A stretch of DNA of 64,000 nt from Lindgomyces ingoldianus (Eukaryota > Ascomycota > Dothideomycetes > Pleosporales > Lindgomycetaceae), in the NCBI RefSeq assembly GCF_010093535.1, contig NW_022985214.1, positions 284,245 through 348,244 on the forward strand, in the 5' to 3' direction. This document shows, piece after piece, positions 152-64,000 of this stretch. The first letter of the stretch is position 1; the number at the start of each line of letters is the position of its first letter. A program made the translations under genes and the position numbers. Under the pieces are notes generated by a model that was not told where the DNA came from, made no database searches, and worked only from the letters and a program-made list of their open reading frames with translations.

Positions 152-202
152 CAACACCAAAACGCGCGATGCACGCGTCAATCAACTACCACCCACGCAA
201 CC

Positions 203-1039: not shown

Positions 1040-1336
1040 TGTAACGATTCTCATGAATCGTTCCATCTCGGGTCGCCCCGGAACCTATCCGAAGGGTCTC
1101 CGTATCGGCTCCGACCCTGACTCGACTCTGCCCGGCCCCCTGCTGTTACCCCTATTCCCTCATGTATTTAGTTGCACCTCGCCCCCGTAGCTAGCTCGGT
1201 AGTTTTCTGATATCCTACGTACAAGGCCTATAGGTGTCATTAGTATTCCCAGGTCTCTGAGTCCCCACGCACTCCCATATGCCTCTGAGTGGATTCATAC
1301 CGCATTCAGACCCATTGTCTTGCCTGCGCTATTACA
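1040..1336 (+). repeat. 5' LTR
   Basis: 297 bp. It differs from the 3' LTR at five positions, all transitions. It keeps many CCA/TCA/TGA/TGG trinucleotides, unlike the internal region. Confidence 0.93.
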
Positions 1337-2900: not shown

Positions 2901-2999
2901 GAAACTCTTTATTCTAGGCTTAAGTAAGTATAATCTATTAAACATTAATCTATTGCACTTGTTTAGAGGAAAACACTTCTAAGTCCCTACTGTTTTGTA

Positions 3000-6830: not shown

Positions 6831-7054
6831 TTACTTAGCAGACAATAAGGTATAAGAGTAAGGAGTGAATTTATAGTTATACATAAGGGTATTACAACTC
6901 TAAGGACACTGCTGGCAGTGCGAAGGAATACTTAGTAAGGACACCTAGCTAAATCAGACTAGTTTTGTTTTAAGGATGCAGAGGATATGACAGCGATACT
7001 TTGTACTATGACTACTACTGATAGGGACTATCAGTCTACAGAGGGGGGGGGTAG

Positions 7055-16141: not shown

Positions 16142-16509
16142 CGGGGTTGCTGGTTTCGGAGGTTTCTTGCTGGTGAACCTGGTGCGCGCGGATTGGAGCG
16201 CTCAAAAACATTAGCATCTGGGACAATCCCACAGTATACGGCTGGATTGTCATCGGAAGTTGGTAGTTACTTTACCGGACTCGGCTTTTTCAGTTTCCTC
16301 ACTATCGAGATTGCTAAGGCTTGGGCGGAGAGCGTCGGGCCTGTTTGCTGTCTAATGTTAGTTGTATTTTATCATCTGCCAGCATTAGACCAGTTATATA
16401 TACTTACCCTCACTCATCATTGACACAGAGCCCTTCGTTGAAGTTTCATGGTTAAGTAAAGGAGTGAGAGAGGCGATTGGTGGACATATATTAGATGCTG
16501 GCCTGTGCG
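16142..16509. other. Upstream region of the DUF3716 gene
   Basis: No gene seen. It holds the presumed minus-strand promoter. A possible Helitron 3' end (CTGA followed by T) occurs at 16523-16527, next to the point where the MFS homology stops, but no convincing terminal hairpin supports it. Confidence 0.35.
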
Positions 16510-36200: not shown

Positions 36201-36361
36201 CACCATTGAAACTCTCGTCTCGGACAACATTTCTGGCTCGATTGAGGTTCCCGTGGCTGCGTCGGCTTTCCTGACCACCATATTTACTCCTCTGTTTGAA
36301 GCTCCTATCACCAATGAAATTCTCGTCTCGAACAATATTCTTCACTCAATTAAAGTTCCCA
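36201..36361 (+). repeat. Imperfect 53-bp direct repeat, 108-bp spacing
   Basis: 36201-36252 (CACCATTGAAACTCTCGTCT...) recurs at 36309-36361 (CACCAATGAAATTCTCGTCT...) with about a dozen differences. Both copies end near a GTTCCC motif. The repeat lies at the border of the RIP-mutated transposon cluster. Confidence 0.6.
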
Positions 36362-36439
36362 TCAGAATTATTGTAGCTCTACTAATATACGTCTAAACTA
36401 GGTTAGATTTGAATAGGTAATAGAGACAGTCTCTAGCTA

Positions 36440-36670
36440 ACGTACACTACAGGCCAGTTGCTTGCACACCTAAGTTGCTTACTTTTACTAAGACCCTACT
36501 AAACTACTCTTTCTACATTAATGCATTCCTAATAACACTACTTAGACATGCTAAAATAATATTAGATACAGCTTATACTTTAAGCTTTTAAATAAAATAT
36601 AACACTTTTAAAGTAATACTTTATAGCTATATATAAAGTCTTTTAAAAAAATAATAAATAACTAATATAC
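36440..36670 (+). mobile_element. Pogo/Fot1-like family B, 5' fragment
   Basis: Begins ACGTACACTACAGG after TA, matching the 5' end of family B (compare 40879 onward). It stops where a family A copy starts at 36673. Confidence 0.65.
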
Positions 36671-37417
36671 TAACGTACCTAACAGGTTAGCCAGCTACAC
36701 AGGTTAGCCAGCTACTTTTGCTAAGCCCCTACTACACTCTACCTATCTACATAATGCCTTAACAACAACACTAGATTAAATCTTCTAAAGAATGTTAGAT
36801 ATAGCTTACTTTTTAAGCTTTTAAATAAGACTTAAAACTCTTCTTATAACATGCTATAGCTATTTATAATGTCTTTTATATAACACTAAGTAATTAACGC
36901 GCTAGACAGCCTTTAAAAGTAGAATGCTAGCCTAAATTAAAAAATCTAACTAAGCTTAAAAAAAAAGTAGTTTTTAAGTACATACTTAAGCTTATTACAC
37001 GCAGATTTTCTTTTAAGCTTATAGCTATAGCTAATATAGCTAATTTCTTGCGCGTAGAGTGTAATCTAGGCTAGGTTAGCTTAAACTAGCCTAGTATGTA
37101 AGTTAAGCACTACTTTAAGTTTATAATAAAGTTTAATTATAAGTATAATTATAAAAAAGCGCTTTATAAAAATCTAAAAGTTATTTAAAGCTAGTTTTAC
37201 TTAGTAGCTAATATAAAAGCTAAGTACAGTATCTAAAATAAAGACATGTATAACTTTAATAAGTTAAGCTTTATAATAGGCTAAATATTAACTAAAGTAG
37301 TTATTATAGCTTTAAAAAAATAAAGATAGCTAAAAGTAATATAGTAAAGTAATAAAAAGTAGATAATAGTTATTTAAAGTATTAATATAATAAAGTAAGC
37401 TATTTTACTTTTTATTA

Positions 37418-38517
37418 ACGTACTTCACGGGCGAGTTGCTTACACACCTGAGTCGCTTACTCTTGCCAAGACCCTACTAAACTACCCTTCCTACACTAAT
37501 ACATTCCCCACAACACTACTTAGACGCGCTAAAAGAATGTTAGATACAGCTTACACTCTAAGCTTTTAAATAAGACATAAAACTCTTAAAAAAATATGCT
37601 GTAGCTATATATAAGGTTTTATAAAAAATAATAAATAACTATAGCACTAGACAACCTTTATAAGCTAATTCTACAGCTAAATTATAGAAGCTAGGCAATA
37701 AAAAGAAGCAGGTAATTATTAAGACTATACTTAAGCTATATGCGTAAGGAATTTCCCCTTAGATAGCATTTATAGCTAATATAGCTAATTCTTTGCGCGC
37801 TAAGCGTAATCTAGGCTATGTTTACATAAACTAGCCTAGTACATTTATAAAGCGTTATTTAGAGCTTAAAGTAACATTTAAGCGTAAGTACAACTATAAA
37901 AGAGCTCTTTATAAGAGTTCTAAAGTAATTTAGGGCAGGTTTAGCCTTATAGAGAATATTAAAGCTAAGTATAGCATCTAGGATAATAACACGTACAACT
38001 TTAGTAAGACAGGGTTTATAATTAGCTAAATATCTCTTAACTATACTTGCGCTTAAACCTTTACTTTAAGCTCTAAATAACGCTTTACAAATGTACTAGG
38101 CTAGTTTATGTAAACATAGCCTAGATTATGCTTAGCGCGCAAAAAATTAGCTATATTAGCTATAAATGCTATCTAAGGGGAGATTTCTTGCGCATATAGC
38201 TTAAGTATAGTCTTAACAATTACCTGCTTCTTTTTATTACCTAGCCTTTATAATTTAGCTGTAGAATTAGCTTATAAAGGTTGTCTAGTGCTATAGTTAT
38301 TTATTGTCTTTTATAAAACTTTGCACATAGTTATAGCACATTTCTTTAAGAGTTTTATGTCTTGTTTAAAAGCTTAAAGTGTAAGCTATATCTAACATTC
38401 TTTTAGCGCGTCTAAGTAGTGTTGTGGGGAATGCATTAGTGTAGGAAGGGTAGTTTAGTAGGGTCTTAGCAAAAGTAAGTAACTTAGGTGTGTAAGCAAC
38501 TTGCCTGTGAAGTACGT
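37418..38517. mobile_element. 1.1-kb foldback (inverted duplication of a family B 5' end)
   Basis: Two arms of about 480 bp (37418 to about 37905, and about 38045 to 38517) are near-perfect reverse complements around a spacer of about 140 bp. Both outer ends read ACGTACTTCAC inward and are flanked by TA (37416-37417, 38518-38519). The uninterrupted site is seen in copy 2 near 39470. It is a non-autonomous foldback or head-to-head derivative of a family B element. It has no coding capacity. Confidence 0.78.
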
Positions 38518-38732
38518 TATTTTTAAAAGCTACTATTACTTCTTTACTTAGTATAAAAAAAATCTACTTTAAAACTAAGTTATTATAGTCTTTAAGAACA
38601 GCTAGATAATAAATAAGCTTAGGCTGTAGTAGTTAAAGCACTTTAATAAGCATATAAAAAAAAAGTTATAAGCACTTATTAGCTTTTTATTATTAATAGC
38701 TATAAAAGCTATAACTTACTTAATTTTTAGTA

Positions 38733-40569
38733 ACGTACCTAACAGGTTATCCGGCTACACAGGTTGGCCAGCTACTTTTGCTAAGCCTCTACCACACTCT
38801 ACCTATCTACATAATGCCTTAACAACAACACTAGATTAAATCTTCTAAAAAACGTTAGATACAGCTTACTCTTTAGGCTTTTAAACAAAACTTAAAACTC
38901 TTCTTATAACACACTATAGCTATCTATAATGTCTCTTACACAACACTAAGTAATTAACGCGCTAGACAGCCTTTAGAAGCAGAATGCTAGCCTAAATTAA
39001 GAAATCTAACTAAGCTTAAAAAAAAAGTAGTTGTTAAGTACATACTTAAGCTTATTACGCGCAGATTTCCCTTTAGGCTTACAGCTATAGCTAATATAGC
39101 TAATTTATTACGCGCAGAGTGTAATCTAGGCTAGGTTAGCTTAAACTAGCCTAGTATGTAGGTTAAGCACTGCTCTAAGTTTATAATAAAGTTTAATTAT
39201 AAGTATAATTATAAAAAAGCACTTTATAAGGATCTAGAGCTAGTTTTACTTAGTAGCTAACATAAAAGCTAAGTATAGTATTTAAAATAAAAACACATAT
39301 AACTTTAACAAGTTAGGCTTTATAATAGGCTAGATATTAACTAGAGCAGTTATTACAGCTTTAAAAAAATAAAGACAGCTAAAGGCAATATAGTAAAGTA
39401 ATAAAAAGTAAATAATAGTTATCTAAGGCATTAACATAATAAAGTAGGCTATTCTACTCTTTATTATTTTTAAGGGCTGCTATTACCTCTCTGCCTAGTA
39501 TAAAAAGGAGAATCTGCCTTAGAACTAGGTTATTACAGTCTCTAAGAACAGCTAGATAATAAATAAGCTTAGGCTGCAGTAGTTAAAGCACTTTAATAAG
39601 CATATAAAGAGAAAAGTTATAAGCACTTATTAGCTCTTTATTATTAACAGCTATAAGAGCTATAACTTACTTAATTTTTAGCAGTACTATAAAAAGAATA
39701 AAATTATTACTATTTATATACCTCTACACTTATTACACCTCTTACAGCCTTTTAATATAGGTTGTTTTACCCCTCTAAAGAAAGTGTATAGGCGCTAAGC
39801 TAAAGATCTTATATGTAACTAAATTACTTATATTATAAAACTTAAGTTTCTACTATGCTTTATACGCGCTTATAATGCAGTAATTACTTCTAGTAATATC
39901 TAAAGAGGGTTTTAAGGCGCTAGTTTAGTTCTATTTAACCTAGAATAGGTTAAAATAGCTTTTAACATTTAGTTATATACTCTATTACTACTACTACCTA
40001 TTAATAATAAGCCCTAGTAGTTGTAAACTCTAAGTAATACCTTTAAATTTAAGTTGCAATTAATGCTTGTAAAAGTAAGAATTTAAAGGCATGTAAATAG
40101 CTTACTAATGTCTATAGTAAAAGCCTTTAAAAAGGTTTTAAAAGAGGCATTAATTATTATGCATAAGCTAGTGTTAGCGTAAAAGAAGATTATAAAGCTT
40201 TAAGCAGCAAATAAGGCTGCCACGCAACATAGATTGCATAAAAGAAAGCAGATTTAGGCAAAAAAGACCTTAATAGTTAAGGATAAGGCTTGTTTAACTG
40301 CTCTAAAGGAGTTTAGAGCGCGTAGTAATAGGAAGAAGCTAAAGACGTAGGTGCGCGCTAAAAGAGGTAAGCTAAGTTAAAAGCAATGTAGGCAGTGTAA
40401 TTAGACTAGGCATAACTTGCGTATGTGTAAGAAAGTAGTAAAAGTAGACTCTAAATAATATCTTATGTTGTATTACTTTATACAGGGCTAAAGTAGGCAG
40501 TTTCGCGCCAGAATGGGGTGGTTTTGGTGGGGGCTTGGCAAAAGTGGCCGGCCAACCCGTTAGGTACGT
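38733..40569 (+). mobile_element. Pogo/Fot1-like family A copy 2, full length (1837 bp), degraded
   Basis: Left end ACGTACCTAACAGG and right end CGTTAGGTACGT are inverted. TA flanks both (38731-38732, 40570-40571). A transposase of the DDE_1 (pogo/Fot1) type was encoded on the plus strand. Its C-terminal zinc knuckle survives at about 40385-40428 (C-x2-C-x4-H-x4-C, read through one stop), after a basic Lys/Arg-rich stretch. Stops at Gln/Trp codons make it non-functional. Confidence 0.82.
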
Positions 40570-40878
40570 TAGTACTATAAAAAAAATAAAATTATTACTA
40601 TTTACATGCTTTTACACTTATTAAACCTTTTATAGCCTTTTAATGTAGGTTGTTTTACCTTTTTTAAAAAAGTGTATAAGTGCTAAGCTAAAGATTTTAT
40701 GTATAACTAGATTACTTATATTATAAAACTTAAGTTCTTACTATGCTTTATACACACTTATAATGCAGTAATTACTTTTAGTAATATTTAAAAAGAGTTT
40801 TAAGGCACTAGTTTAGTCTTATTTAACTTAAAATAAGTTAAAATAGCTTTTAACATCTAGTTATATACTTTATTACTA

Positions 40879-42742
40879 ATGTACTTTATAGGCGAGTTGC
40901 TTACACACCTAAGTTGCTTACTTTTACTAAGACCTTGCTACACTACTTTTTTTACACTAATGCATTTCTAACAACACTACTTAAATATGTTAAAGGAATA
41001 TTAGATGTAGCTTACACTTTAGGCTTTTAAATAAAATATAATACTTTTTAACTAACATGCTATAGCTATTTATAAGGTCTTTTAAAAAATAATAAGTAAC
41101 TAACACACTAAATAACTTTTCTAAGCTAATTATATAGCTAACTTATAAAAGCTAAATAATAACAAGAAGTAAGTAATTATTTAGCACATACTTAAGCTAG
41201 ATGTGTAAGAATTTCCCCCCTAGCTAGCAGCTATAGCTAATATAGCTAATTCTTTGCGCACTAAGTATAATATAAGCTATATTAGCATAAACTAGCTTAA
41301 TATGTTTATTAAGTGTTACCTAAAGCTTAAAGTAAAGTTTAAGTGTAAGTATAACTATAAAAAAGCTTTTTATAAAAATTTTATAGTAATTTAAAGCTAG
41401 TTTAACCTTATAAAAAATATTAAAGCTAAGTATAGCATTTAAGATAATAACATGTACAACTTTAATAAAATAAAGTTTATAATAGGCTAAATATCTACTA
41501 AAGCAGTTATTATAGGTTTAGAGAGATAAAGACAGCTAAAAGTAGTCTAGCTAGGTAACTAGAAGTAGATAATAGCTATCTAGAGCATTAATGCTAAAAA
41601 GTAGGCTATTCTACTTTTTATTATCTTTTAAAGTAGCAACTACTTTTTAAACTAGTATAAAAAAAAATCTACTTTAGAATTAAGTTATTATAATTTTTAA
41701 GCGCAGCTAGACTACTAATTAGCTTAGTTTAGACTAGTTAAAGCACTTTAACATATATATAAAAAAGTGTACTATTAGCAGCTACTATCTGCTAGTTATT
41801 AATAGCTATAAAAGCTATAACTTACTTTATTTTTAGTAATACTATAAAGATAATAAGATTATTACTATTTATATACTTTTTTACTTATTACACTTTTTAT
41901 AGCTACTTAATGTAGGTTGTTTTACTTCTTTAAAAAAAGTGTATAAGCGCTAAGCTAAAAACCTTATATGTAACTAAATTACTTATATTATAAAAATAAA
42001 GTTTTTACTATGCTTTAAAGTAGCTTATAATGCTATAATTACTTTTAGTAATATTTAAAAAAAGTTTTAAGGCGCTAAATTAGTTCCTTTTAACTTATAA
42101 TAAGTTATAATAAGCCTTAATATAAAGTTACACACTTTATTACTACTACTACCTATATATAACAAGCCTTAGTAGTTGTAAACTCTAAGTAATACTTTAA
42201 AACTTAAGTTATAATTAATGCTTATAAAAATAAAAATTTAAAAGCATATAAATAGTTTACTAACTTTTATAGTTAAAGTGTTTAAAAAAGTCTTAAAAAG
42301 GGCAGTAATAATTATATATAAACTAGTGTTAGTGTAATAGAAAATTACTAAGCTTTAAGCAGCTAATAAGGCTACTATATAACATAAATTATATAAAAGA
42401 AAGTAGATTAAAGTAGAAAAGACTTTAATAATTTAAAAAAGCCTATGCTTAACATCTTTAAAGAAGTTTAGGGCGCGCAGTAACAAAAAGAAGGTAAAGA
42501 AGCAGGTGTAAGCTAAAGTAGGTAAGCTATCCTAAAGGCGCTGCAGATAGTGCAATTAGACTAGGCATAACACATAAACATGTAAGCAAGAAGTAGAAGT
42601 AGTATCTAAATAATATTCTAGGCTGTACTGTACTATATAGTGCCAGAGCAGGTTGTTATGGGCTATAATAGAGTTTGTTAGGGTGGGGTCTTAGCAAAAG
42701 TAAGCAACTCAGGTGTGTGAGCGACTCGCCCATGAAGTACGT
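40879..42742 (+). mobile_element. Pogo/Fot1-like family B, full length (1864 bp), degraded
   Basis: The left end is a mutated ACGTACTTCA...GGCGAG motif. The right end CTCGCCCATGAAGTACGT is its inverse, and TA flanks both. Internal sequence is homologous to family A, including the C-terminal zinc knuckle near 42541-42586. It is inserted into family A copy 1. The transposase frame is destroyed by TAA/TAG. Confidence 0.8.
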
Positions 42743-42744
42743 TA

Positions 42745-42836
42745 TAACTATAGCTATAAAAAAGCTTTTTATAAAAATTTAAAAGTAATTTAAAGCTAGT
42801 TTAGCCTTATAAAAAAATATTAAAGCTAAGTATAGT
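42745..42836 (+). mobile_element. Family B internal fragment
   Basis: A short stretch matching about 41352-41440 of the full family B copy. Left over from an older disrupted element. Confidence 0.55.
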
Positions 42837-43378
42837 AAGAAATATTCTGCAATCACTTTTAAAACCTGCAATTAGTGCAATTGCAGGCAGGTATATAGTC
42901 TTGCCCTGCTAAAACTAGTCTAGATCATATTTGCGCAGCCGGTATTTACTGTCCGTTGTGGATGAATCTCAACGCCATGTCCGAGACGAGGAATCCAATC
43001 AAGGGAGATATCAATGGCGTTTGTTTGCGTTGTATTAAAGAGGACGGTGAATGGGAAGGACGTAAGAAATACTTGCATACGTAGGAAATGATAACTATGT
43101 TTGATGCGAAAGCGGGCGAGGTGAGGAGCCACAACAGCTGTAAACTCTCTTGAAACTTAGCGCCTCATCGCGCCATAAGTAACAACGACCTACACCTCCG
43201 TTCATCATTGCCGCTAAACAAAAGAAACTCCTCTTGACAGTGGGAGAGACGTTGAATCTTTCGAAGAATAGTGTTAGAGAGCGCGTGGTTGCTACTGGTC
43301 TTGCCCGCGATATCGCACGTGCCATGGGTTCCAGAGCCAGACTTTGCCATAATAAGTTAGCGCTCAGAAATGACAGCG
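42837..43378. other. Non-repeat spacer, no gene
   Basis: Ordinary composition between two mobile blocks. It contains several short ORFs but no recognisable domain. It is the left insertion flank of the 10.3-kb element. Confidence 0.45.
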
Positions 43379-43386
43379 GTCTGGGT
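43379..43386 (+). repeat. 8-bp target site duplication, left
   Basis: GTCTGGGT, identical to 53731-53738, each directly abutting the terminal inverted repeat. Confidence 0.85.
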
Positions 43387-43407
43387 TTATCTCAGCTAGC
43401 TCAGCCG
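43387..43407 (+). repeat. Left 21-bp terminal inverted repeat
   Basis: Exact reverse complement of 53710-53730. It contains the internal palindrome AGCTAGCT. Confidence 0.87.
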
Positions 43408-43420
43408 ATTGGGGAGAGAA

Positions 43421-43493
43421 GGGGCGAAGCCCCGACAGGGGCAGAGCCCCTGATACCCTTGCTAGTCAACATAAACCCATGCTAGTCGCGCCG
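43421..43493. repeat. Three GC-rich mini-hairpins just inside the left end
   Basis: GGGGCGAAGCCCC (43421-43433), GGGGCAGAGCCCC (43439-43451) and GCGCCGGTGGCGC (about 43479-43491) each form 5-bp stems with 3-nt loops. They lie within 110 bp of the left terminus and keep high GC while the interior is AT-rich. They are candidate transposase binding sites. No matching set was seen at the right end. Confidence 0.6.
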
Positions 43494-44399
43494 GTGGCGC
43501 TCACGCTATCTTTCTGGCTAATAAGGATGCTAGATTTAGCTTCTCTCCCTAGCTGTCTAAGGGACTTTAGTAATTAATTATATAAACAACTAATTTTAGT
43601 GCTTACTTTTTATATAAAGATGCATTATATTAATATTTACGCATTTTTTTTTTTTTTTTAAACATCTCTAAACTTTAGGCTAATAGCTACACAACTTTTT
43701 ACTATTATTTATTAAATTGTTACGCGTTTTGCACGTTGTTTACTGTACAAAATAGCTAATAAGTCTACTAGTCCTACCCTGCGTCTGCGCTAGCGTCTAC
43801 AACCCTCTTATCTTCCTCTAGCAAATAAGCTACTACCTTTTTTATTATTACTTTTATTATTACCTTTTTTTATGTTCTTTTTACTTTTATTTATAGTTAC
43901 TACTAAGCCTTAGGCTTTAGTTTTAATAACTTATCTCTTTATAACTTTATAAGTAGCAGGTGTGTTTACTTAGCGCGTCTAGTTATTTATACTTATTTAC
44001 ACTCTAAAATTAAAAAAACTAAAGCAGGTTCTAGCGTTAATAAATAAGCTACAGATACTAATAGGTAAATTTATTAAGTTATATTTGTAAAACCTACTGT
44101 TATTAAGGGCTCTACTACTTAGTAGACATAAAATAATTCTTTAATTAGCACTAAAACAGCTAAATATTTATGTAGTGTTAAGTAAAAATAATAAGGCTAC
44201 TAGTGTTTTTAGTTTTATTACATTTATAAAAGAACTTAATAGTTTTATTAAGTAAAAGTTTTTTAACTAGTATAATACAGCCTTTAGGCTAGATAAGGTT
44301 AATTTTACTAAGTTAAAGTTAATTATAGCTAATTAAGCTCTAAATTAGAGCAGGTTTATTAAAAAACTTTTGTAAAATAAGTAAAGTACTTAAGGTAGT

Positions 44400-46547
44400 T
44401 ATAGTAAAGCTAAAAGTTTATAAAATAGTAAGGTGTATTTAATTACTTCTATTATCTTACATTACTAGGCCTAGAAGAGATGCAACTACTTTACCTGCCT
44501 ACTAAGTCTATATTTACATAGTAGTAGTACAAAACAGTGTGTTATAAAGATGTTGTTAGGCTTAAGTGTTTATAACTTATATAAGATTATAAACTAGAAG
44601 GTTAATAAAATAGCAGACTATATAAAAAGCTTATAAGTTATAATATTATGTTATATAGCTTATATCTTACTTAATGCTAGGCTACTAGGTCTTACGCATA
44701 ATTCTTAGTTAATAATTATGTATAATAATTATAACTTTACTAACTAGACTTATAACTACACTATAAGCATTGCAACAGCTATCTAGTAGAACTTAATAAT
44801 AGCACTTATTATAAGATGTCTATAGATCTCTAAGGATAGTTTAACCTAGTCTATGTTTAATCTTAGTATAGCATTGCAGCCTAATTAGATCTATATAGCG
44901 CCTAGCATAATTTAGGACTATATAAGCAAGCAAATTACATTGTGCTATATGTTACACGCTATAGCTGCTATCTACAGTGCTGCTGTATTAAGGGTCTTTA
45001 TTAGCTTAGAAGACTAGTTGCTGTTAATGCTAGCTATTAAAGTTCTACTATGTAAAGAACCTAGCTAGGTAAATTATTTAAAAGTAATATTTTTTAATAA
45101 AAGTGTTATTAATAAGACTTATAAAGTGCATAATAATATTTAGCTTTAGTAGTTAAATATTTCTGTAAATCTAAAAAAGCTAAGCTTTAAAACACAGCTA
45201 TAAATAGTATAGAGTAACTAGAAAACTGCTAAGTTTATACACAGTTTTAAGAAAAAGCAGCGCAGCGCGTCCTAGCTATATAACAAAAGGGATTAGATAA
45301 TTAAACTGCTTATGTATTTTTATATCTTTTAGGCACTTACTTACATAATTATTTATATGCACTTTAATACGCCTAAAGGTACAGACTTTTTTAGTAATCT
45401 TTTATATAATATTATGCGCTTAAACTGTGCTAGTATTAATTAGGGTAATGTTAAGTATTATATAGCTGTGCTGCTAATATATCTAAGCTAGAGCGCCTAA
45501 ATAGTTATGTTGTTTTACTAGAAAATAGGTAACAGTAGATATCTCTAAGGCTAGGTGCTAGATATCTATGCAGCAGATGTCTAGTAATACTAGTAAGGTT
45601 TTTATAATAAGGCTATTAGTTAGCTTTTACCTAACTAGTACATTAAGTTGCTTAAGCAGATATATAAAAAGGTCTTTGCACTTACTATGTAAAAGGGCTA
45701 TAATAATTCTAAAGGCAACTAGATAATAATATATTAGTTTTTTTAAAAAATTAAAATATTTTTTACTTTATAGCATGTAGTTAAGTTTAGTAATATTAAA
45801 ATTATTTATTACTTAATTAATTTATTAGCTGTATTCTTCTTTAGATCTAGTTAGAAGCGCTATAGTACTAAGCTGCTACACCTCTGCTAGTTAGTCTTAA
45901 ATAGGGTGTTAACTCTAACACTTTAGCAGTTTATACTTGCCTCTAGGTTAGTTAACATACACAGAAAGCTAAACACTTTTTAAGTAGTTAATATTATGCT
46001 TAAGCTTATAAACTATGTGTATAAGCTTAACATGCAGCACTTTAAAAATAAGACTTATAATGTAAACTTTACTTTTAGTTGTCTTACACTATCTTACTAG
46101 TTTTATATGCAACTCTGTGCGCTAATAGAGGGCGCCTTTAAAAAGAAGAGTAAGAATAAGTATACACAGCGCAACATTAAGCTAGAGACATTTGCCCTTG
46201 CTATTTATCTGCTAAGTTATAGGCGCTGTAAGCGCTTAACTAGTTAGATTAACTAAGAGCTCCCCTAGCCTATTATAAGCTCTAATATTATTGCTAGTAG
46301 TATTAAGTTGTTAACATTAAAAGTTATAGACTTTAATGTTAGTAATGTTATATCTAGTAATTATATACTAGCACTAGATGTAACTAATCTAGCAAGCATT
46401 AGCATAGAGAAGTTATGTTATATTAATATAATAAAATTTACAGAAATAGTTAAAGGCATAACTTATAGTAACTCTAAGAGTTTAGTTAACAATTTAATTA
46501 ATAGTAATTTTAATAAAGGTCTTAACAAAGCCTTTAAAGATAAATAA
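44400..46547 (+). pseudogene. DUF6589-domain protein relic
   Basis: One plus-strand frame stays readable over about 2 kb through TAG/TAA stops. Blocks matching what I know of fungal DUF6589 include a VQ-S/G-x-QKTA-FIxSxKKxQR region near 45200-45270 followed by a YxxRDxxI segment; TxFNTPKGTDF-like near 45365; the SxKRYSTKLLHLC and FILASRLVNIHRK segments near 45850-45965; and NIMLKLINYVYK followed by a FTFSCL segment. An uninterrupted last 79 codons ends at 46547. DUF6589 proteins are abundant, transposon-like families in fungi of unknown function. In this element it is the candidate transposase, by position only. The start is not identified. Confidence 0.75.
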
Positions 46548-49500
46548 AGTAATTATATATTTATATTTTATATATACTTATAGTAAGCACTTCTGTGATG
46601 TATAATAGTGTTATAAAGCACTATTTACTTAGTGCAGCTAATTAGACGCTGTGCGCTATTAGTTGCTTACTAGTTTTAACAACTGCGCAGTGTTAGGTAC
46701 ATAACTGCTCTCTAGCCTCTTTGTATTAGCTTGTACGCCCTTATCTAACCTACAGCCTATCTACATATTACATGTATTAAGACAAATTCCTAGCTATAGA
46801 TTACCTAGTTACTAGTATATTATTATAGTTTTACGCGCTTACTATTTCTAAAAGTTTTTTAATTATAATAATGCCTATTAGTTTAATAGTTTTAAAAAGT
46901 TTATAAAAATGCTTATATTTTACTTAAATAATTTAAAGATGTAGTAGTAATAGATAAAGTTATATAAAGGCTTAACTATGTTAGAGTAAAACTTAGTTAA
47001 AAATTAAAAAAGCTAAGGCTATTCTAATTATAGTAATGTTATATTACTGCGCGTTTTAATTATTATAAACTATTTACTTATATTTACTACCTGCTGTTTA
47101 ATGTAGTTTAACTCTATAACACTAATTAATTAATTACATGCAATATATATTTACTTTAGTAAGACTTTTTTTTCTTTTTATTTACTGCTGCTACCTAGCC
47201 TGCTTATTATTAATTTAATGCTTTATAATTACTTATATATATTATATCTTACTTATTTTTACTTACTTTTACCTTTAAATTAGGTAATTTTTAGTTATAA
47301 TTAGTAAAAAATAATTAAAAGGTTATAATTTTTTATGCTAGTTAAACACTAGTGCTTTTTATATCCTTTTAAATAATCTTATAATGTGTACTTTTACTGC
47401 TAGGCAGAAACTCTAGTCTAGTTAAGTGCTTTTGCTACTAAGGTAAAAGCTAGAGTATATATAAGCCTTTTTTTTTTAGTTAAACTCTTTTTAATTATTT
47501 TTAACTTTTTTACTTTAATTAGCTAAGTTTCTTCTACTTTTTTAATTTAAGCTGTACTAAACACTGTATAGTTACTTTATCCTCTACCTTACCCTGTAGG
47601 TGCTTGTCTACCTTTATTAACTAGCTAAGTCTCCTCTCTGTCTATGCGTTAGGCTGTCTTAAGCACTCTATAGTAACATAGTTCTACTCTTTCTTTCTTT
47701 ATTACTTTTCTTAATTAGCTAAACTATCTTTTTGCGCGCTTTTAAACTCTTTTTTTTTACTTAACTATGTCTTTAAACTTTTTCTTACTATACTTTTTCT
47801 TAATTAACTATATTTACTTTCTAACTATTACTTATTGCCTCCCTGCCCTTTTTTAAATAGTTACATGTGTTAGATTTAGTTACTAGTATTATATATTAAT
47901 AAGTGTATCTAATCTTTTTATATTTTTAGACTAACTATAATATAACTTTAGGCTATAACTATTCTAGATTAAGTTTTTTTTTTTTTTATTTATAGTTATG
48001 TATCTTATTATTATACTTTATATGCTTATTTTTTTTTCTTTTCTTTTATTGTTCCTGTTTCCTTCCTAGACGCTAGACCTAGACGCTGGACCTGGACCTA
48101 GACCTAGACCTAGACCTGGACCTAGACCTAGACCTGGCTACCTTAGACAACAATTAGCAACAATTAGCAGGCACAAAGTTAAAACAGAGTTCTAGAAAGT
48201 CTAGTGCGTACTAGTTAGAAGAGACTGCATGTGTGCTAGTGTGTACTAGCAATTAGGCAACTAGGCACATATAATGTTTGCTACATTGCTTTAGCAATGC
48301 TGTATTAGTAGGTAATTAGAGAGTAATTAAAGGGTAATTAAAGAGCTATTAAAAGGTAATTAAAAAGTAATTAAAAAGCATTTAAAACATTTATAATAAT
48401 TAGTTTATCTAATTATAATAATTAGTTTACTAATTATTTAGCTAGGTCCCTTCTAAACCTAGTTTATTAGTAGGCACTAAAGAAAAAATAATTTAAATAA
48501 TTTTACTATAAAACTACTATCTAGCTTAGTTTATTTAGTTTTTATTTAGATTATTCTTAATAGTGCCTAAGGTTGTAAGGCTAAGGGCTAGGTTTAGGCT
48601 CTTCTATAGCTAGGTAGTGTCTATTAATAAGTTCTTTTAGTTGTATAATGTAAACATTCCTTAGTAGAGCACTATAGTAGGGGCATCCTTATAGTCCTAG
48701 AAAGATTCTAAGCAGACAGCAAAGCATTATATGCTAAAGGCTATATTATGTAGAACTATCTCTCTTAGTTAACTAGCTTTTTAGAGTCTAGAAAGTCCTA
48801 CGCTTATATAAAATAGCTTAAAAGGTGCTTATTAGTTTAGATAGCTATTACTATCTAGCTAAAAAGTATACATAGTCTATATTATTTAATCCTTTTACTT
48901 AATTAGCTAAATAAAGCAGATTTAACACAAAAATAATTTAATATAAGTGTGTTTATTATATAGAAAAGTGTTTATAGTGTGTTTATATAAGCAGCTAAGC
49001 GCTAATAGGTCTAGCGCGTAGATATAGCACATATTTTTAAAAAAACTACTTAATTAAGAAATTATATTTATACTTAGCATACTTTATTTTAACTTTATTA
49101 TTAACAACACTTGCTGCAGCTACCTATATACCCTTCTTTAAAAACAATAATAATAATTGCTTATAGGTTGCCCTACCTAGGCTTCTACATAATACGCTAA
49201 AGATATATAAACACATAATATATACCTATAACTATGCTAAGTTTCTTTATTAAATTTTTTTAGCTACTTTTAAATTTAATATTTATCTTACTAAAACTTT
49301 TTACTAAACTTTCTCTTTATACCTACTATCTCTACTTAGAACTATAGCTAGCTTTAGATCTGCTACTAAGTTTATCTTTAAGCTTAACTTACCTTACAAC
49401 ACACTTGCCTAGCATAATAATATAAAGATGTAGGCCTAGCAGCCTTCTTCTATTTTATAAGTCTTCTGTAATGTGCTTTCTGTCTGTAAAAAGATGTTTA

Positions 49501-51400
49501 GTTAATAAAGTGTTTTTTTTAAAGTTAAGAATAAAGCTTGTTTATTACATCTCTTTTTCTAGCTACACTGTGCACAAAACCTAACACCTTAAACGCACGC
49601 ACCCTACACTATAGGCAACCCCTTTAGGGAACCCTCTTATACAAAACAAGAGAATGCGCTAGGGCAGCTATAAAAACAACAATAATAATTACCTATAAGC
49701 GCTACTTTGTCTGCTCTAGCGTACAGCGCTCTAGGAAACTAGTTTAAATAAGTAAAGCTATTACTAACACTTTACACCTAAACTATAGTAAGAATAAGCA
49801 TAGTTAGTTTAGTATTTTAAAAAAGACTGCTTACACTTTTATTAATATATCTCTAAGCTTTGCGTAGTTAGAGTTAATAATATGTTTTAATAACACTTTT
49901 AACTATCTAACTACAGCTTATCTGCATTATAATAAATGCGCACACTACCTATATTAGCTGCCCTGTTATCTAATAAGTGCCTTTAACACTTGCGTGTTAA
50001 TCTGCTTAGAAATACTGCACTAGCTACTAAATTAGTGTGTAACACATTTATATTATATAATAAGCTCTAATAAACTGTAGTAATTAGAGTATAAGAAGTT
50101 CTTAACTATCTTAGTGTATGTAGCATAGAGGACTAGCGCACAGCCTATTTGCCTCTGCAACCTAGCTTAGAAGTGTATAAGCTAATAGTAATTTTATCTA
50201 ATGTAATAAAAAGTAATAAGACTATTTTAGGCAGTAACAGGTAGTAACTACTACTAGTTAGTGTGTGTAGGACCTAGGCTAGCATAGGGCTCCCTATAAT
50301 TATAGCTGCGTGTTGCCTGTCCCTTAGCAACATATACAACTCTACACCTAGTAAGTATAGTACGCTAAACGCAGCAGAGGCTGCTACAAATAAACTATTT
50401 AGACTAGAAAGGTGTGCTATAACTATAAAAAAACTGCCTTAATAACTAGAAATATTACTAAGTAAAAAATTATTTTATAAAAAAAAGTTATTATTAAATA
50501 GTAACTCTAGTACTATAGTTAACACTATAGACTTAAATAACACATTAATTATAACTAGTTTAAGGGGTAGACTATATTACTCTAACTAGTTCTGTTGCTA
50601 GTAATATCTATGTTATGTAGCCTACATAGCTAGACTGTTATCTTGTATATAACTACCTAATAAGGCCCTAGTAGCATTGTGTATACCTAGCAACCTAGAG
50701 ACATTGCCTGTTCTAAGGAGCGTGTTATTTTTGTAAAACTTGCTTTATACTATAAGCATAATATACTTAAACTTACTTTTAATAAATGCTAGATGCAACT
50801 CTATAAACTTCTAGTCTAATAGTAGATAATTCTGTACACTACTAGTGCTATACCTACTAGACTTAATAAGCACTGTAACTTTATTACTCTTAATATTCTT
50901 TTATTTAGTAATAAGCCTTACTAGCTTTTATTAGTTTAAGTATAAAAAAAACACTAAAAATAAAAGTAAAACTAAAATATTATTTTTAAACACACTATAG
51001 ACCTTTAGAAAGTACTAAAAAGTAGATGCCTAACATATCTTTTAAATATGCTGTAATATAAGGCTAGCTTTACTTTTTAGCATTAGCGCAGTTTTTTTAG
51101 CAGGCAGAGGTAAAGCGCTTTAATATAGCATAAGTGCTAGATTATAACTTATGTAATAAGCAACCTTTTCTAGAAAAAGTTACTGTGTTAATTATATAAA
51201 TAAGTTATTTTAAAAATACTAAAGTAAGTGCTTATAATAACACTTAGAGTTAATTAGGTTTTACTACTTAGGCTTAATGCTAGCTTATTAGTTTAGCTAT
51301 TTATTTATCTAATTAAAAGGTCTACCTTTATATCTATTATACTAAAATGTAACTACATAATTCTATAAATTAGCTAAAGTGCTTTTAACCCTCTCTTTTG
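46548..51400. other. AT-rich interior of the 10.3-kb element, no readable gene
   Basis: Saturated with TA-rich mutations. It may include C-terminal parts of the helicase or further genes, but I could not follow a frame. It contains the hexamer array at 48065-48137. Confidence 0.4.
48065..48137 (+). repeat. Hexamer minisatellite (GACCTG/GACCTA)
   Basis: About eleven units of GACCTR, with a few imperfect GACGCT units at the start. The mixture of CCTGG and CCTAG junctions looks like partial RIP of an original GACCTG array. Confidence 0.75.
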
Positions 51401-51499
51401 CAGCCTCTAATTTAGGTTTATTATGTAGGGGTGTAGACCTAGGCAGAGGTGTTACAGCAGGAGTAACAGGCGTCTAACTACTACTAGCAGATGCCTAAT

Positions 51500-52950
51500 C
51501 TAGCAACGTTATAGTTATTGTCTGCCTTAATATAAAAGGCTTTATCTTATAATAATTTTTTACTTTTATAAGTTACTTTTTTTTTATTTTTTACTTTACC
51601 TAGCTGCTAGCCTGTCTATTACTTGCATTTAAATTAGTGCTAAGATAGTTAAATGTATAAAAAAAAATAAATAATATAGCAACTATAGTCTTACTATAAC
51701 TACACACACTATAACTAAACTACTATATTAGATTACTTATATCCTAAGTAATTAAAATGTTTTATTAGTATACCTGCTTAATTCTAGAGATATCTATACT
51801 TATTCTAAGCGCAGTTGTACAGATAACAATCTAGATAAAGGCATTAGCGCCTTTAAAATTTTAATATATCTCTTACTAGTCTGCGTCTGCAACCTAACTA
51901 GTATACGCCTAGACTACCTTCTTAGCATTTGCTATAGAGTAGTGTCTATCTAACACAAGACAAGATTAAAGGAGCTCTGTAAAGTTAGTAATATAGGTGC
52001 AACTATTAATAAACACACACGTCTTTAAAATAAGCTTTAGGTTGCTAGGAGAACTAGTAGTACTAAACTTATAATTAATAATATATAAGAGCTAAGTATA
52101 TGTGCTTTTACTATAATTATTAATTAAAATAATAGCGTACGCAATCTTAGGGCAATCTACGCACATCCTAATTACCTCTAGGCTGCCTATTAGATTATTA
52201 CCTATCCCTAGACCCTCTGGCCTAAAGCTACTAAAACAGCGTACTGCCTTTTCTGTCTGCTTGTTAAATGTAGCAGTACAAGTAAAAAACATTATGTTAA
52301 GAGATAAACACTACTAAAGCTTATAAAACTATAAATACTTTTTCTAGAAATTTTTTTACTATTATATAACATAGCACTTGTCTAATACTACTAACTTAAC
52401 CTAAGTATAAAATATAGTGTTAGTAAATAGCTATTAGAACGCTAGTAATATAGCCTACTTTAGACCTAGTAAAATATAAGTGTATAGAAGCTACTAGATT
52501 TTTTAAAATATTTTTAAGTTAGCATTTTTTATTTATTTAGTAACTAGATATAAACGCGCTTTAGAATACTAGCAGATTACTTTAAACTACTTATTTTTTA
52601 GCTTTAATAGTAGTATAATCTAAAGCATAATGTTGCCTATAAATATAGAATATATATGTAAAATAATGCTTTTTTTAAAGCTAGTGTAGGCTACAAGGAT
52701 TATATCCCTAAGGCTATATATAAGCTAATAGATAGCGCGCACCTGCTACTTATATAGCTCCTTACTGCCTAATAACTTCTGCATAGCCTAAGTAAGTAAT
52801 AGCGTTTAATACTAGATATTACACTTTATAAAACACTTATATACTAAATCTTATAAAGTATTAGCACTTAAAGTATAATAAGCTTTAATATAAAAAAGCA
52901 TTACACTAGCTAGTCTGTATACTTAATTTAGCGCTGCATAGTCCTTATTT
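51500..52950 (-). pseudogene. RecQ-like superfamily 2 helicase relic
   Basis: Read on the minus strand. A degraded motif I (PT-x4-KS) lies near 52690. A DECH box is changed to DKCY (VLDKCYV) near 52380. A motif III-like TATF block sits in an uninterrupted 66-codon stretch ending at 52092. Then follow a FINS block, a region ending VVxAYTS, and ICTTALRISIDISRIKQVY near 51760-51820, matching the motif V region of RecQ helicases. All stops are TAA/TAG. The order and wording resemble fungal RecQ helicases, including telomere-linked ones. In intact form it would be a DNA unwinding enzyme of the element; here it is dead. Confidence 0.8.
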
Positions 52951-53334
52951 AGCACTAAATAAGTAGTCTCTTCTAAGTAGACAGCTAGAAGACTTAGCGC
53001 AAGCTGTACTTGTGCTAGCCTCCTACCTAAACTCTAATTCCCTGCGCGCTAACCTAGCCCTCTAGTCTGCATAGTAGCTACTACAGCAAATAATTAGCAG
53101 TACACATTAAAAGGTGCGTAAATAAACACATAGATAATATATAAAAAAATATTTATAATATTTAGTGTCTAAACTGCTTACTGCGTAAGCGTTAGTACTA
53201 TTTTGCTTACTGTAATAGAACTATACGCATAGGACAAAATTAGCAGATCTAGAAGCTAGAGGTAGTTTACAATAGTAAAAATAAATAGCGCCTAAAATAT
53301 AAGTGCCTTGCAATACATAAGCATAGATAATAAG

Positions 53335-53346
53335 AGGGGGGGGGGG
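53335..53346 (+). repeat. G homopolymer run
   Basis: An uninterrupted run of about eleven G in otherwise AT-rich sequence, near the right end of the 10.3-kb element. Confidence 0.7.
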
Positions 53347-53709
53347 TTTAAAGTAACACATAAAATTAGTTGTAGAAAAGGTTATATTACGCGCGCAGAT
53401 AGATTTAAATTACCCTAGACATTATTAGATCTTATTTAAAATATGCTTATAATGTTCTTACTAGAGTTTTGCACATTATATTAACTTTTAAAGTCTATGT
53501 ATAATATACCTATTATACTATCTAAAATTACGTCTTTATTCTTAAGTAGTTAAAATTAGTTATGTACACAAAAAATCACTAAAGTCCTTTAGACAGCTAA
53601 TAAGAGAAAACATTAGTTGCAGGGGTTTAAAACTACTAACCCTAGGTTATACTCTGTTAGGAGTAGCAGTATGCATGGTGGTATGTGCGTTGTCGGTTCT
53701 CTCATCAGC

Positions 53710-53730
53710 CGGCTGAGCTAGCTGAGATAA
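53710..53730 (-). repeat. Right 21-bp terminal inverted repeat
   Basis: Exact reverse complement of 43387-43407. Confidence 0.87.
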
Positions 53731-53738
53731 GTCTGGGT
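53731..53738 (+). repeat. 8-bp target site duplication, right
   Basis: GTCTGGGT, identical to 43379-43386. Confidence 0.85.
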
Positions 53739-57719: not shown

Positions 57720-58229
57720 GTCCCAAGCTGAGTTTGAGCCATGCGACGGAGATCATTCAGGCCTCCAAAAGCTGGAAGTGGAGCACGCTTCTCTTACTTA
57801 GCTTAAGTATTCTTGTGTGTACCTTTTAGTGTAGTAGAGAAAGTTGTATAGTATTAATTTAGCAGGCATGGCGCCTATCTTATTGCAGTTTTAGTGCCGC
57901 GGCCGCTAATTCTAGATAAGTGCTCTAGAGGCTTTAGCAGCGCGTTTAGTGCTTCTAGCATAGCGTTAGAAGCTTATAATAACAAGTAAGAAGCGTAAAC
58001 AATAGACATTAAGGCACTCTTATAATAATAATACTAGTAGGTTAACGTGCTAAAACGTATAGTAAAACAATAACATGTTTAACAAGCAAGCTAGACATAC
58101 AAGCAAGCTAGACAGCTCTACTACACGTTGTGTAGCAACACCTTTTAATTCTTATAGTTTAACAATACCTAATTTTAACTAACTTAAACTTAAAGATAGA
58201 CTTTTTTAAAAGATTTTAACTTTAATATA
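57720..58229. other. AT-rich repeat-like sequence, unassigned
   Basis: TA-rich sequence starting near 57780, probably another degraded element. Contains a GCGGCCGC palindrome at about 57899-57906. No gene. Confidence 0.4.
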
Positions 58230-58609
58230 ACGTACCTAACAGGTTGGCCGGCCACACAGGTTAGCCAGCCACTTTTGCCAAGCCCCTACTAAACTCTACC
58301 TATCTACATAATGCCTTAACAACAACACTAGATTAAATCTTCTAAAAAATGTTAGATACAGCTTGCTCTTTAGGCTCTTAAATAAGACTTAAAACTCTTC
58401 TTATAACACGCTACAGCTATCTATAATGTCTCTTACACAACACTAAGCAATTAACGCGCTAGACAGCCTTTATAAGCAGAATGCTAGCCTAAATTAAGGA
58501 ATCTAACTAAGCTTAAAAAAAAAGTAGTTGTTAAGTACATACTTAGGCTTATTACACGCAGATTTCCTCTTAGGCTTATAGCTGTAGCTAATATAGCTAA
58601 TTCCTTGCC
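58230..58609 (+). mobile_element. Pogo/Fot1-like family A, 5' fragment
   Basis: Starts ACGTACCTAACAGGTTGGCC after TA and follows copies at 36673 and 38733 for about 380 bp. It is then interrupted by the Gypsy LTR at 58610. Confidence 0.72.
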
Positions 58610-58884
58610 TGTGATGACAAGCACTGTCTCTACTACCGTATAGAGCTGGGGAAGCAAGGCAGAGTAGGTCGGCTCTATTTCAGCTACACTAAGATAGGGA
58701 GGAGAAAGGGAGCTTTAAGGGCAGCTCTATAGAAGAAGTGCTCACAGCGCTAAGGCGCTAGTAAGAACGCTAGCGCTAAGCAAACTAATAGCGTTGCGCT
58801 AGTTACACCCCCTATATCCTAATTAGCTGCACAGGCAGCTTATTATGTGACGCGCAACAGAGCTCTCTGCGTAGGACTGTTACA
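58610..58884 (-). repeat. LTR (3' LTR of the minus-strand Gypsy element)
   Basis: 275 bp, TG...CA ends, GC-richer than the adjoining interior. Its partner is outside the window. Confidence 0.65.
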
Positions 58885-58889
58885 TTACC

Positions 58890-61800
58890 CCCTTCTAAGG
58901 CAGTCTTATCTTTAAGACTAGGTAGTTTAGCGCTTTTATGTTAGTTTTTAAACTAGTTAAGACCTTAGTGTAAGTTAATTATTAACTTTTATAAGTTTTA
59001 TATCTTTACTTTTTTTATACACTTATAACTAGGTGTCTAGTTGCGCTAGTAGACTAGGCTTAGTAAAATATGCTTAGTAGAAGTCTCTTACCTTATGCAG
59101 AGCTCTAAAAAATCTGTTAGCATTATACTAAGTAAAGTTAGAATTATAGCCTACCTATAAGGCTTAGTATTAGAAACGCCTGCAGTAGACGCAACTATTT
59201 AGAATATTCTAAACCTGCTACTTAGAGTAACTATTAACTTTAATTAGCTTCTCTAGAGGCTTAACTTAACCTAGCAGCATTATAGGTGCTGCCTACTGTA
59301 GGTAGTCTACATAGAAGATGTTATGCATTCTTATATATAGGGGGAGCTTAAGCTAGTACAAATAACCTTTTATGCCTATAATTAGATAAGGCCTATACAT
59401 CTGCTAGTTAAGCTTCTAGCTAGGGCGCCCTATAGTAAAGCTTTTAAAAGTTATGTATACTTTATTACTTACTATAAAGTTAGGCTTACACTACTTTTTA
59501 TTTACTTAAGCTGCTTACTACTTTTAGGCTTAAGTAATGCTTTTTTTTATAATCTTAATTACTTATTATATAGTGTTATAGTAAAGCTTAGCATAGCTTT
59601 AAGCCTTTTTATATAAAATCTGCTCTAGCGCAGTTAGTAAGTGTTTTATACGTGCCTTTTAGTCTTAGTAGTGTGTTAGATAATAGCTAAACTTAATTTT
59701 AAATAGTAATAACTTTATTATCTTATATAGTAAAGATGCTTAAGCCTAGTCTATATAAGGCAGCAGGTCTAACTAGTTGTCTTAAAAGTAATTAATAAAT
59801 AGACATAGTTGCTAGTTAATATACTAATTTAGCACTTTTATGTTGCTGTTAGTTTAAAGGTAGTAGGGCATAAAAAGCTTTTATTTAACACTAGTAAAGC
59901 AGTAAAGCTTATTTATAAATATAAAAGTAAACTATAGTTTATAGTTAAAGATAATTAATTAAAGGGGTTTATAAACACACTAGATATAGTAATAGTATAG
60001 GTCTGCAGCCCCTACAGCAGTAATAGTCTTATAGCATAGTAGTAAGAAGTAGCGCTTGCTTAAACAGTCTACTATAATAAACATGTTATTATAGCTAGCT
60101 TAATTAAGTAGGAATAACTTAAAATTTATAAAAATATTTTACTATACTTACTTAAGTATTAGTAGTAGCTTAAGAAGCTCTAAAGTCTTATTTTAAAAAA
60201 TATAGCTCTACTAATAGGCCTTATAAGTGCTAATATAAGTCTTAATGTTCTAGCTTATGCTTAGTTAGTAGTACTACTTGCGTAGCAGCTTAGTTATTTT
60301 TCTAGTTCTAGAATGTGCAGTAAGTTATATTATATAAATAGTGTAAATAAAGTAGGTTTTTAAGAACTAGATAGCTAGAACTATAAGCTTCTCTTTTTTT
60401 AGTAGTAGGCTTTTAGCGTTAAGCTTTTATTATAAGCTAAGATCTTATACTTTATTATAGTAGTATTATAAGCTTTTATAATTCTAATTAGTATCTAAGA
60501 TTTAATTAATAAGCTTATATAGTTAATTTATTAGTAGCAGCTTTATAAACTTTTTATTTAGTAAAAAAGTGCTTTATAAAGTAGCATGTAATTAAGTAAT
60601 AAAACTAACACTAATCTACTTTTAGCTTAAAAAAAAGTGTGTATAAGCAGCTTTATTTTTTTTTTATGTCTTAAGCTTCTTTTACTTCCTTAATAGCATA
60701 TCTATAATAACATTAGCAGTGCCTAGGCAGTAGGTTAGTGTAAGGTTAAAGTCTACTATTAGTATAGCTTATTATATCTAGTAAAGAGTAAGCTTATGTT
60801 TAATAGCAAAGTACTTAAAAGCTTAGTAGTTAGTAATTACTATAAATAGTTTATCTTATTATAAGCTTATTAGCTGCGCTTATTACTTTTATAGGCTTTA
60901 AATAACTATAAGCATTTTTTTATTATATATATTATAGTTTATCTGCAGCAGGCTTATAGTCTTAGAGTAGAACGCTATAAAGCGCTAGATGCTATTGTCT
61001 TGCAGCTGTAATAGTACTTTTATAACAACTCTATTACTTATATTAGTCTTTATATGTGTCTTATAATTTAGTAAGTAGTGTGTAAAAATGTTATCTAATA
61101 GTATAAAGTTTTTAGCGCGCTTAAATATAGCTAACTTATGCTTTTTTTAAAAATGCTAGGCGCTATGCTTAAGTAGCTTTATAAGCAGCTATATAATGTA
61201 ACTATAGTTTTTAAGAAAGGCGTAGTAGAAGTTATAAAACTCTAGAAATAACTATAGGCTTTTAATTAAAGTTAGTATAGGCTAGTCTTAGACAGTAGCT
61301 ACCTTAGTAAAGTCCTTATAAATTTTATCTATGCTAATAATAAAACTTAAAAATTTTATTTTAGTAACTATAAATTTACTCTTTTTAAGGTTAATCTATA
61401 GGCTAGTATTTTATAGACAACATAAGACCTTAGTAATATATGCCTTATGCTATAAAAAGTTGTCTAAGTAGATTAAAATATTATTAAGGTAAGCTATATA
61501 AAAGTTATTAAGTAAGCTATATAAAACTTAATTAATATATTACTAAAAAGTTATAAAGCTATTATAAAGTCTAAAAAGCAGCATATAATACTTATAGTTA
61601 CTATAGTATGTTTAAAAAGTAGTTAGGTCCTTAACTTTTTTAGTAAGCTAAATATAATAAAACACCTATTATATATTAAGCTTAGTAAAGACCTTAGCTA
61701 TAGCTAGCTACATAAGTGTTTTTTAGATTAGAAGTATTAAGTAAGCATTTTTTTTTTATAATTATATTAAGCTTATAATAGTTTATATAAAACTTTTACT

Positions 61801-64000
61801 TTTTTTTTAGCTTTTTAGTAAATAAGACTAGAGAAGCGTAGCTAGCGTTGCTGTGCGTAATAAATCCGCGTTGCAGGTAGTTGTCTAGATAGTCCTTAAC
61901 TAGCCTAAGCTGCTCTAGAGACATGCTATATAGTAGGCTACTTAATAAGGTGTTCTTTACTATTAGCTTAATATTATAGTTAACGCTAGGTTAGTGCAGC
62001 AGCAGTTTATTTAAGTCTTTTTTTAAAAAGTAAGCTAGTGTAGCTTTAGTATACATAAAGAATAGTAACTTTTTAAGCATTAGCTATTAAAGCTTATTTT
62101 TAAGATTAACTATTATAGGTGCTTAGTAGTCCTTAATTAGTTAATTAACTTTATAGACACTAATATATCTAATTATAACATCTTTACACCTTATGTGTAG
62201 CATAAACATAGTAGCGTTAATTACATTTACCTTTAGCTCTACCTTAGTAAGTGCTTTTTTAGATATAGCTAGTTAATGTTAGCGCGCTTAATTAGTGCTA
62301 AAAGGTATTAGTTAAGAATTAAGTTACTTTTTTATTTTTTTTAAGTTTTACTACTAATTATGCTTTTAAGTTAATTAAAGTTAGTATTAATTAATTTTTA
62401 ATATTTTTATAAACTTATTTTATTAGTTAGTGTCTACTTAATAAGATTAGTTAATCTATAAAAATGTGCTATATATAAAAATAATAATATTATACTTATA
62501 GTCCTATGTCTAATTATTATTTAGCTACTAAATTAATTATTTCTTATAGTTAATTTAAACACTAGCTTTTTTAAAAACTTTATAGCCTATAATTAAGTTA
62601 TAATAGCTTATGTTATAAAGGATAAAAAGTGTAGGTAGCTAGTAGCTATTAATTACTAGATTTATATAGAAGTACTTGTCTACTTATTTATTTAGTTAAT
62701 TATTATATTTTATAATAAAAATAGACTTAATGCTAAGCATCTTAGGCTATAAGTGCTTCTAAATTATCTGTAGGTGTTGTAGGTAGATTAGATTATAGCT
62801 GCTAGCCTTTATATTAATAAGACTATTTAAGCGTACAGTAATCTCTCTAGTAAAGACATAGTAAGGCAGCATAAAAAGCTTACTGCTAAATAGTAGCTTA
62901 CATAGCTTCTGTGCTAGCACTTTGTTTATTAACTTTAGAAAAAAGACTTTTTTTAAAGTAAGTTTTTTTTTAATTTACTGTTTTTACTAGAGCTTATAGC
63001 GTCTAGCTTCTGCGCTGCTTCTATAGCTTTACTCTTAGCGCAGGCGTAAGAGCAGTTATAACTTATATATTTTAGCTAATAGTATAAGTAGCAGGTTATA
63101 GCATCCTTTATTAAAGCTGCCTGTGCTTAGAGTGTTACTAAAGTTATTAAAGTAGCAGTAGTAGCAGTAGGTTAAAGAACATTTTAACGTGTAAGCTTCT
63201 CTTAACTTTTCTACATACATTATGCGCTTAACTCTGTAGTAGACCTCTGCAGTAAGAAGAATATCTAGTAAGCTTACTTTATATAATTAAAAAAGCTAAC
63301 TATTAAGTTATTATAGTAAGTTTTTATATATACTTAAAGCTAACTTAATAAGGTGTTATAAATCTTATTTTTTTACTGCTTAAGCAGCAGCTTAGCTTTA
63401 TTTATAAAGTATATAAACTAAGCCTTAAAGTTTTTAAAATTTTAAAATAGCTTTATTTTAAGCTAGTAAAGCTTAGTTTTAGCTTTTATTTACTAGTTAG
63501 TATTTTTAAAGCTTTTTTTTAAAAAGCTTATAATATTCTTAGTTATTACTAGCTTACTTTACTACTTTTAAGCTTTAAAGTAAAGAACTAGTTAACTTAG
63601 CACTTAACTACTTACTTTACTTTTAGTATAGTGTACTTAAGTGTTTTTTTTTTATAAAGTTACTAATTATAGGTATAAAGTAGTCTATGTTATAAAGTAG
63701 CTTACTTATTAGAAAGTCTTTTTAGTAATTAAATTTAACATTATTTTTACTTATAAACTTAGGCAGATTCTCTGCTTTAGCTAATAGTTTTAGCCTAGCT
63801 TTCTAGCTTATAGTACTAATATAAAAAAGGTTAAGTATTCTTAGTGTAGCTAAGTTAAATTATAGTTACTTTTTTAGTGTAGTTAGCATAGGTGTGCCTT
63901 TTAGCGCTTAATAAGCTTTATTTAAGAGAAATAATTAATTATATATTAGTATAGTAGTAGCTTTAAATCTTTTAACTTTATCTTTATAATTAGCTAAGTG
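58890..64000 (-). pseudogene. Gypsy pol relic, minus strand
   Basis: Only the reverse transcriptase core near 61470-61495 is firmly recognised; both catalytic Asp codons are Asn. Surrounding sequence is expected to hold integrase (toward 59 kb), then protease and gag (toward 64 kb and beyond), but those were not traced in detail. Confidence 0.6.

Follow-up and report, generated by a model that had tools for sequence, protein, structure and literature searches.

An inactivated 10,344-bp transposon of Lindgomyces ingoldianus carries a RecQ-like helicase beside DUF6589, its probable transposase

Background

A stretch of 64,000 nucleotides from the fungus Lindgomyces ingoldianus (assembly GCF_010093535.1, contig NW_022985214.1, positions 284,245 to 348,244, here called the window) contains an insertion with relics of two genes, one for a DUF6589 protein and one for a RecQ-like helicase. 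The locus raises the question whether DUF6589 is a transposase, whether the helicase belongs to the same mobile unit and whether the pair defines a new class of transposon, as an earlier interpretation made from the letters alone (the sequence-only reading) had proposed. The evidence given below supports, with a probability of about 0.86, that the element is a copy, inactivated by repeat-induced point mutation (RIP), of a two-gene transposon with terminal inverted repeats (TIRs), in which DUF6589 would be the DDE transposase and the RecQ-like helicase a fixed accessory. Transposons pairing a transposase with a RecQ helicase have already been reported, and the window element differs from them by its 8-bp target-site duplication (TSD).

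Ends, target duplications and copies

The window element measures 10,344 bp and lies between two copies of GTCTGGGT. The 21-mer TTATCTCAGCTAGCTCAGCCG starts both ends inwards as a perfect inverted repeat, and the termini are TT..AA. An inverted-repeat search lists 32 pairs with this one at the head, where the repeat extends to 34 nt at 88%. The insertion unit described in the sequence-only reading is thereby borne out in its length, its TIR and its perfect 8-bp duplication.

The genome searched comprises 68.4 Mb in 99 contigs (designated C with a number). Allowing up to three mismatches, the 21-mer of the TIR matches 197 places and its reversed control one; the TIR is therefore not a chance match. 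Among the matches listed (100 of the 197) there are 39 exact places, 22 of which pair by hand into 11 elements spanning 10,296-10,542 bp, the window copy included. An additional exact pair on C16 spans 43.7 kb and contains insertions; there the match to the window element is broken into consecutive blocks. At one locus (L033, C7:1644168-1647188) two related elements stand almost head to tail, a gap of about 70 bp separating the right end of one from the left end of the other. The same TIR on two IMG/VR contigs was taken as chance (GC 0.50, phage-like, no DUF6589 or helicase match).

Flanks were compared for 23 elements; the TSD measures exactly 8 bp in 22 of them and 7 bp in the remaining one, a 28-kb element on C11. 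This sample consisted of ten members of the window family (the window copy, two on C28 and one each on C8, C17, C22, C30, C33, C34 and C16; C36 and C55 left out), six longer elements and seven short ones (1.2-1.6 kb) with a sister type of TIR. The 22 8-bp TSDs have no clear consensus and no clear base preference. The comparison with empty sites, which had been suggested as a check, succeeded for the C33 copy: its joined flanks match an uninterrupted paralogous site on C16 with 81% identity over 159 bp (39 of them left of the joint), and the 8-mer is there only once. The remaining matches are weak, the window's own being a 72% partial match at C60, and a candidate for the C22 copy sits inside a minisatellite and is not trusted.

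The DUF6589 gene

The Pfam model for DUF6589 (PF20231) matches the window at 45738-46154 on the forward strand (C53:329982-330398) with 28.9 bits against a cut-off of 27, and the tblastn alignment to a relative within the window copy itself covers 44028-46577. The model is above cut-off in six of the 11 listed full-length copies. The DUF6589 end was found at the DNA level in four further copies (C8, C28a, C30 and C34), giving 10 of 11 with C36 left out. The relatives found are fungal.

AlphaFold models of two DUF6589 homologues have an RNase H-like fold with an all-helical insertion, as in DDE transposases, and the nearest solved structures are those of Hermes (hAT) and the P element. Foldseek by itself supports this match weakly. 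At the RNase H positions of the predicted secondary structure a D-D-E set is found in 30/30, 44/46 and 47/47 of the rows with letters among 47 homologues. The structure prediction proposed earlier has thus yielded the expected fold and conserved acidic columns, the distances between the residues aside. Because of the modelled fold and the near-invariant D-D-E, DUF6589 is very probably the transposase of the element, in agreement with the suggestion that it was the transposase or an essential partner.

Searched by sequence, the relative P0002 gave no solved structure at E up to 10, and the BFVD fold search gave nothing at E 0.001. In the viral_contigs and genome_contigs sets DUF6589 gave pattern matches, none of which was confirmed by tblastn. 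The name DUF6589 does not occur in the literature searched, which hence prints no link between DUF6589 and a transposase, and PF20231 yields only an unrelated paper on optics. Within that literature two points are new, the naming of DUF6589 as a probable transposase and the duplication of 8 rather than 9-10 bp.

The helicase gene and its pairing with DUF6589

The helicase relic lies on the reverse strand, and the two relics in opposite orientation were thus read correctly from the letters. The RecQ type was established on the less mutated C33 copy, the window copy being left out. The C33 reading P0004 matches three RecQ models (NF008279, E 9.5e-6; TIGR00614, E 3.7e-5; a third, E 2.4e-4) and the E. 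coli RecQ structure 1oyw (E 2.1e-4). The bit scores for the RecQ models are far under the family cut-offs, as expected because the C33 copy is mutated, and Pfam Helicase_C scores 20.8 against a cut-off of 23.5. A homologue search with this mutated reading found none.

In the genome P0004 matches 42 places, including each of the 11 listed full-length copies (its own included) and divergent elements, most with 31-45% identity. A helicase place is found within 20 kb at 22 of the 32 DUF6589 places and is convergent in 21 of these 22, while a rough calculation for a uniform distribution, which ignores the gathering of repeats in blocks, gives about 0.6 within that distance. Of the 21 convergent pairs, six belong to the family of the window element.

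That the two genes arrived as separate, nested insertions is contradicted by the copies: one TIR pair encloses the helicase in 11/11 listed full-length copies, the DUF6589 end is present in 10 of them as counted above, and the sister family repeats the layout. The genes accordingly belong to one unit, and the expectation that copies contain both holds in this genome in all 11 for the helicase and in all ten examined for DUF6589. Judged from these sequence comparisons, the helicase is a stable partner of DUF6589 in the element.

Sister family and short elements

The sister family has TIRs ending in CAGACG and the same gene layout, with a 10.4-kb copy at G000:C1:1229079-1239534 and others. When one member (L084) was compared, two short middle stretches proved conserved, at about 47073-47267 and 48824-48868 of the window (about 3787-3981 and 5538-5582 in the numbering of the C33 copy), and no longer one. 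In the C33 copy a six-frame Pfam scan over 9,800 bp found no further domain between the two genes and no TET/JBP domain; a weak nucleocapsid match below cut-off was taken as chance.

Seven short elements of 1.2-1.6 kb have sister-family ends and 8-bp TSDs and are too short for either gene. They match the compared larger elements at the ends; L066 and L068 share 99.3% identity. The most plausible reading of the seven is that they are deletion derivatives and would have moved in trans.

Decay of the window copy

Inside the element the window and C33 copies differ by 1,496 transitions and one transversion among 10,343 aligned positions, and the window has T or A at 1,477 of the transitions. GC is 0.286 in the window copy and 0.428 in the C33 copy, which is less mutated and also has many stops. 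In the window copy none of the three presumed catalytic positions (about 44724, 45216 and 46002) still has a codon for an acid, and many further codons have changed as well; the copy cannot make a working protein. The copy is dead, inactivated by RIP, of which the excess of transitions is the mark. Since nearly all differences are transitions, the two copies would have differed very little before they were mutated; this suggests that the element spread recently and then underwent RIP.

Proposed mechanism

The observed ends, TSDs, copy number, gene pairing and RIP, together with the predicted fold and the conserved D-D-E columns, are consistent with the following course of events. DUF6589, as a predicted DDE transposase whose RNase H core carries an all-helical insertion (the Hermes/P/RAG fold group), would recognise ends starting TTATCTCAG, excise the element and insert it elsewhere through strand joining staggered by 8 bp, presumably by cut-and-paste. 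Cleavage would be carried out by the three conserved acids. Excision by Hermes leaves hairpins on the flanks, and by analogy the same may apply here. The convergent RecQ-like helicase probably unwinds DNA, either at the ends or during strand transfer and gap repair. The short elements, which have ends of the same kind but no genes, may have been moved in trans.

Relation to known elements

A RecQ helicase has been reported in Academ transposons (PMC3627910), fungal Academ copies carry PF00270 and recQ_fam (PMC6416283), and KolobokH, known from fungi only, combines a DDE transposase with a RecQ helicase (PMC9587614). These records, to which PMC10045372 can be added for Academ, weigh against both the claim of a new transposon class and the statement that no described element with this pair is known. 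The window element is therefore regarded as a variant of known elements with a transposase and a RecQ helicase.

DUF6589 may simply be the Pfam name for the AcademH transposase, for which the odds are judged slightly better than even; this concerns classification only and is compatible with the mechanism proposed. The window element and AcademH are both DNA transposons found in fungi, with a DDD/E transposase (in the window element a predicted one) and a helicase, which in Academ is RecQ-type, and AcademH is recorded from Ascomycota, Basidiomycota and Mucoromycota (PMC10799480). On the other side, the AcademH TSD is reported as 9 or 10 bp (PMC10045372), whereas it is 8 bp in 22 of 23 elements here and 7 bp in one, a comparison made by description only. 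Neither "Academ transposase" nor "AcademH transposase" occurs in the literature searched. AcademH was reportedly defined by Kojima in 2020 (Mob DNA 11:15). Because the 9-10-bp TSD is not found, the window element, though it would work like AcademH, is not filed there. That DUF6589 forms a transposase lineage of its own within the hAT/P/RAG fold group, with an 8-bp TSD and a convergent RecQ helicase kept across divergent families, and thus a two-gene superfamily distinct from AcademH, is put forward tentatively.

It is unlikely that the helicase is a captured passenger without a part in movement. In favour of it, the short elements, whose ends are related and whose TSDs are 8 bp, have spread although neither gene fits into them, which means that the genes are not required in cis; moreover, 11 of the 32 DUF6589 places have no convergent helicase. 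Against it, divergent families repeat this convergent arrangement, their helicases being as little as 31% identical, and one TIR pair encloses the helicase in every listed full-length copy.

That the element is an ordinary hAT, P or KDZ (Zisupton-type) element, with TSD and fold from that superfamily, is improbable: hAT and P elements likewise have 8-bp TSDs, and Hermes and the P element are nearest to the models in their RNase H core with helical insertion, but a Pfam scan of the relatives P0002 and P0003 (E <=5, with filters dropping most matches >0.1) gave DUF6589 alone and no hAT, P or KDZ model, and we know of no RecQ partner for these superfamilies. The likeness to KDZ is the 8-bp TSD, reported for Zisupton (PMC12730594), and a difference is the lack of a TET/JBP domain in the scan of the mutated C33 copy. 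Kolobok is rejected because TSD and termini differ: Kolobok has a 4-bp TTAA TSD and 5'-RR..YY-3' termini, with the helicase downstream in KolobokH, while the window element has 8 bp without TTAA, TT..AA termini and the helicase on the opposite strand.

Feature coordinates and surroundings

Table 1. Features of the transposon copy in window coordinates.
Feature	Position	Strand	Basis
Left TSD, GTCTGGGT	43379..43386	.	Direct letter match
Whole transposon copy, RIP-mutated, 10,344 bp, GC 0.286	43387..53730	.	TIRs, TSD and copy comparison
Left TIR, 21 bp perfect (34 bp at 88%)	43387..43407	+	Repeat search
DUF6589 gene relic, probable DDE transposase	43749..46577	+	tblastn of P0001/P0002; Pfam PF20231; left limit carried over from C33 copy
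Middle stretch without recognised gene	46578..49843	.	Comparison with L084; Pfam six-frame scan of C33 copy
RecQ-like SF2 helicase gene relic, convergent with DUF6589	49844..52967	-	Genome matches; limits carried over from C33 copy
RecQ-matching core of helicase relic	about 51759-52781	-	Limits carried over from C33 copy
Right TIR, 21 bp perfect	53710..53730	-	Repeat search
Right TSD, GTCTGGGT	53731..53738	.	Direct letter match

The element adjoins an AT-rich RIP block of high-copy repeats (window 36301-43300), in which a unit of about 1.87 kb (about 40877-42745) has at least dozens of copies among the matches listed, most with 90-94% identity. Further AT-rich blocks with high TpA/ApT are found at 1-7000 and 58000-64000, and the window therefore alternates between GC-normal gene blocks and RIP-like blocks. 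A GC-normal block contains a 1540-aa open frame of Helitron type without stops (8300-12919, forward strand; Helitron_like_N, PIF1 and Pif1_2B), a DUF3716 protein (15236-16201, reverse strand) and a Peroxin-3 gene (26326-27432, reverse strand).

Implications

What is new and useful here is a probable function for DUF6589. If the assignment is true, a Pfam family without a function is a transposase, and its members ought to be masked as mobile DNA instead of being counted among host genes. Its stable association with a RecQ helicase raises the question of what part a helicase plays in transposition by cut-and-paste. A further question is whether the helicase bears on the length of the TSD, which is 8 bp here and is reported as 9-10 bp in AcademH and 3-4 bp in AcademX (PMC10045372).
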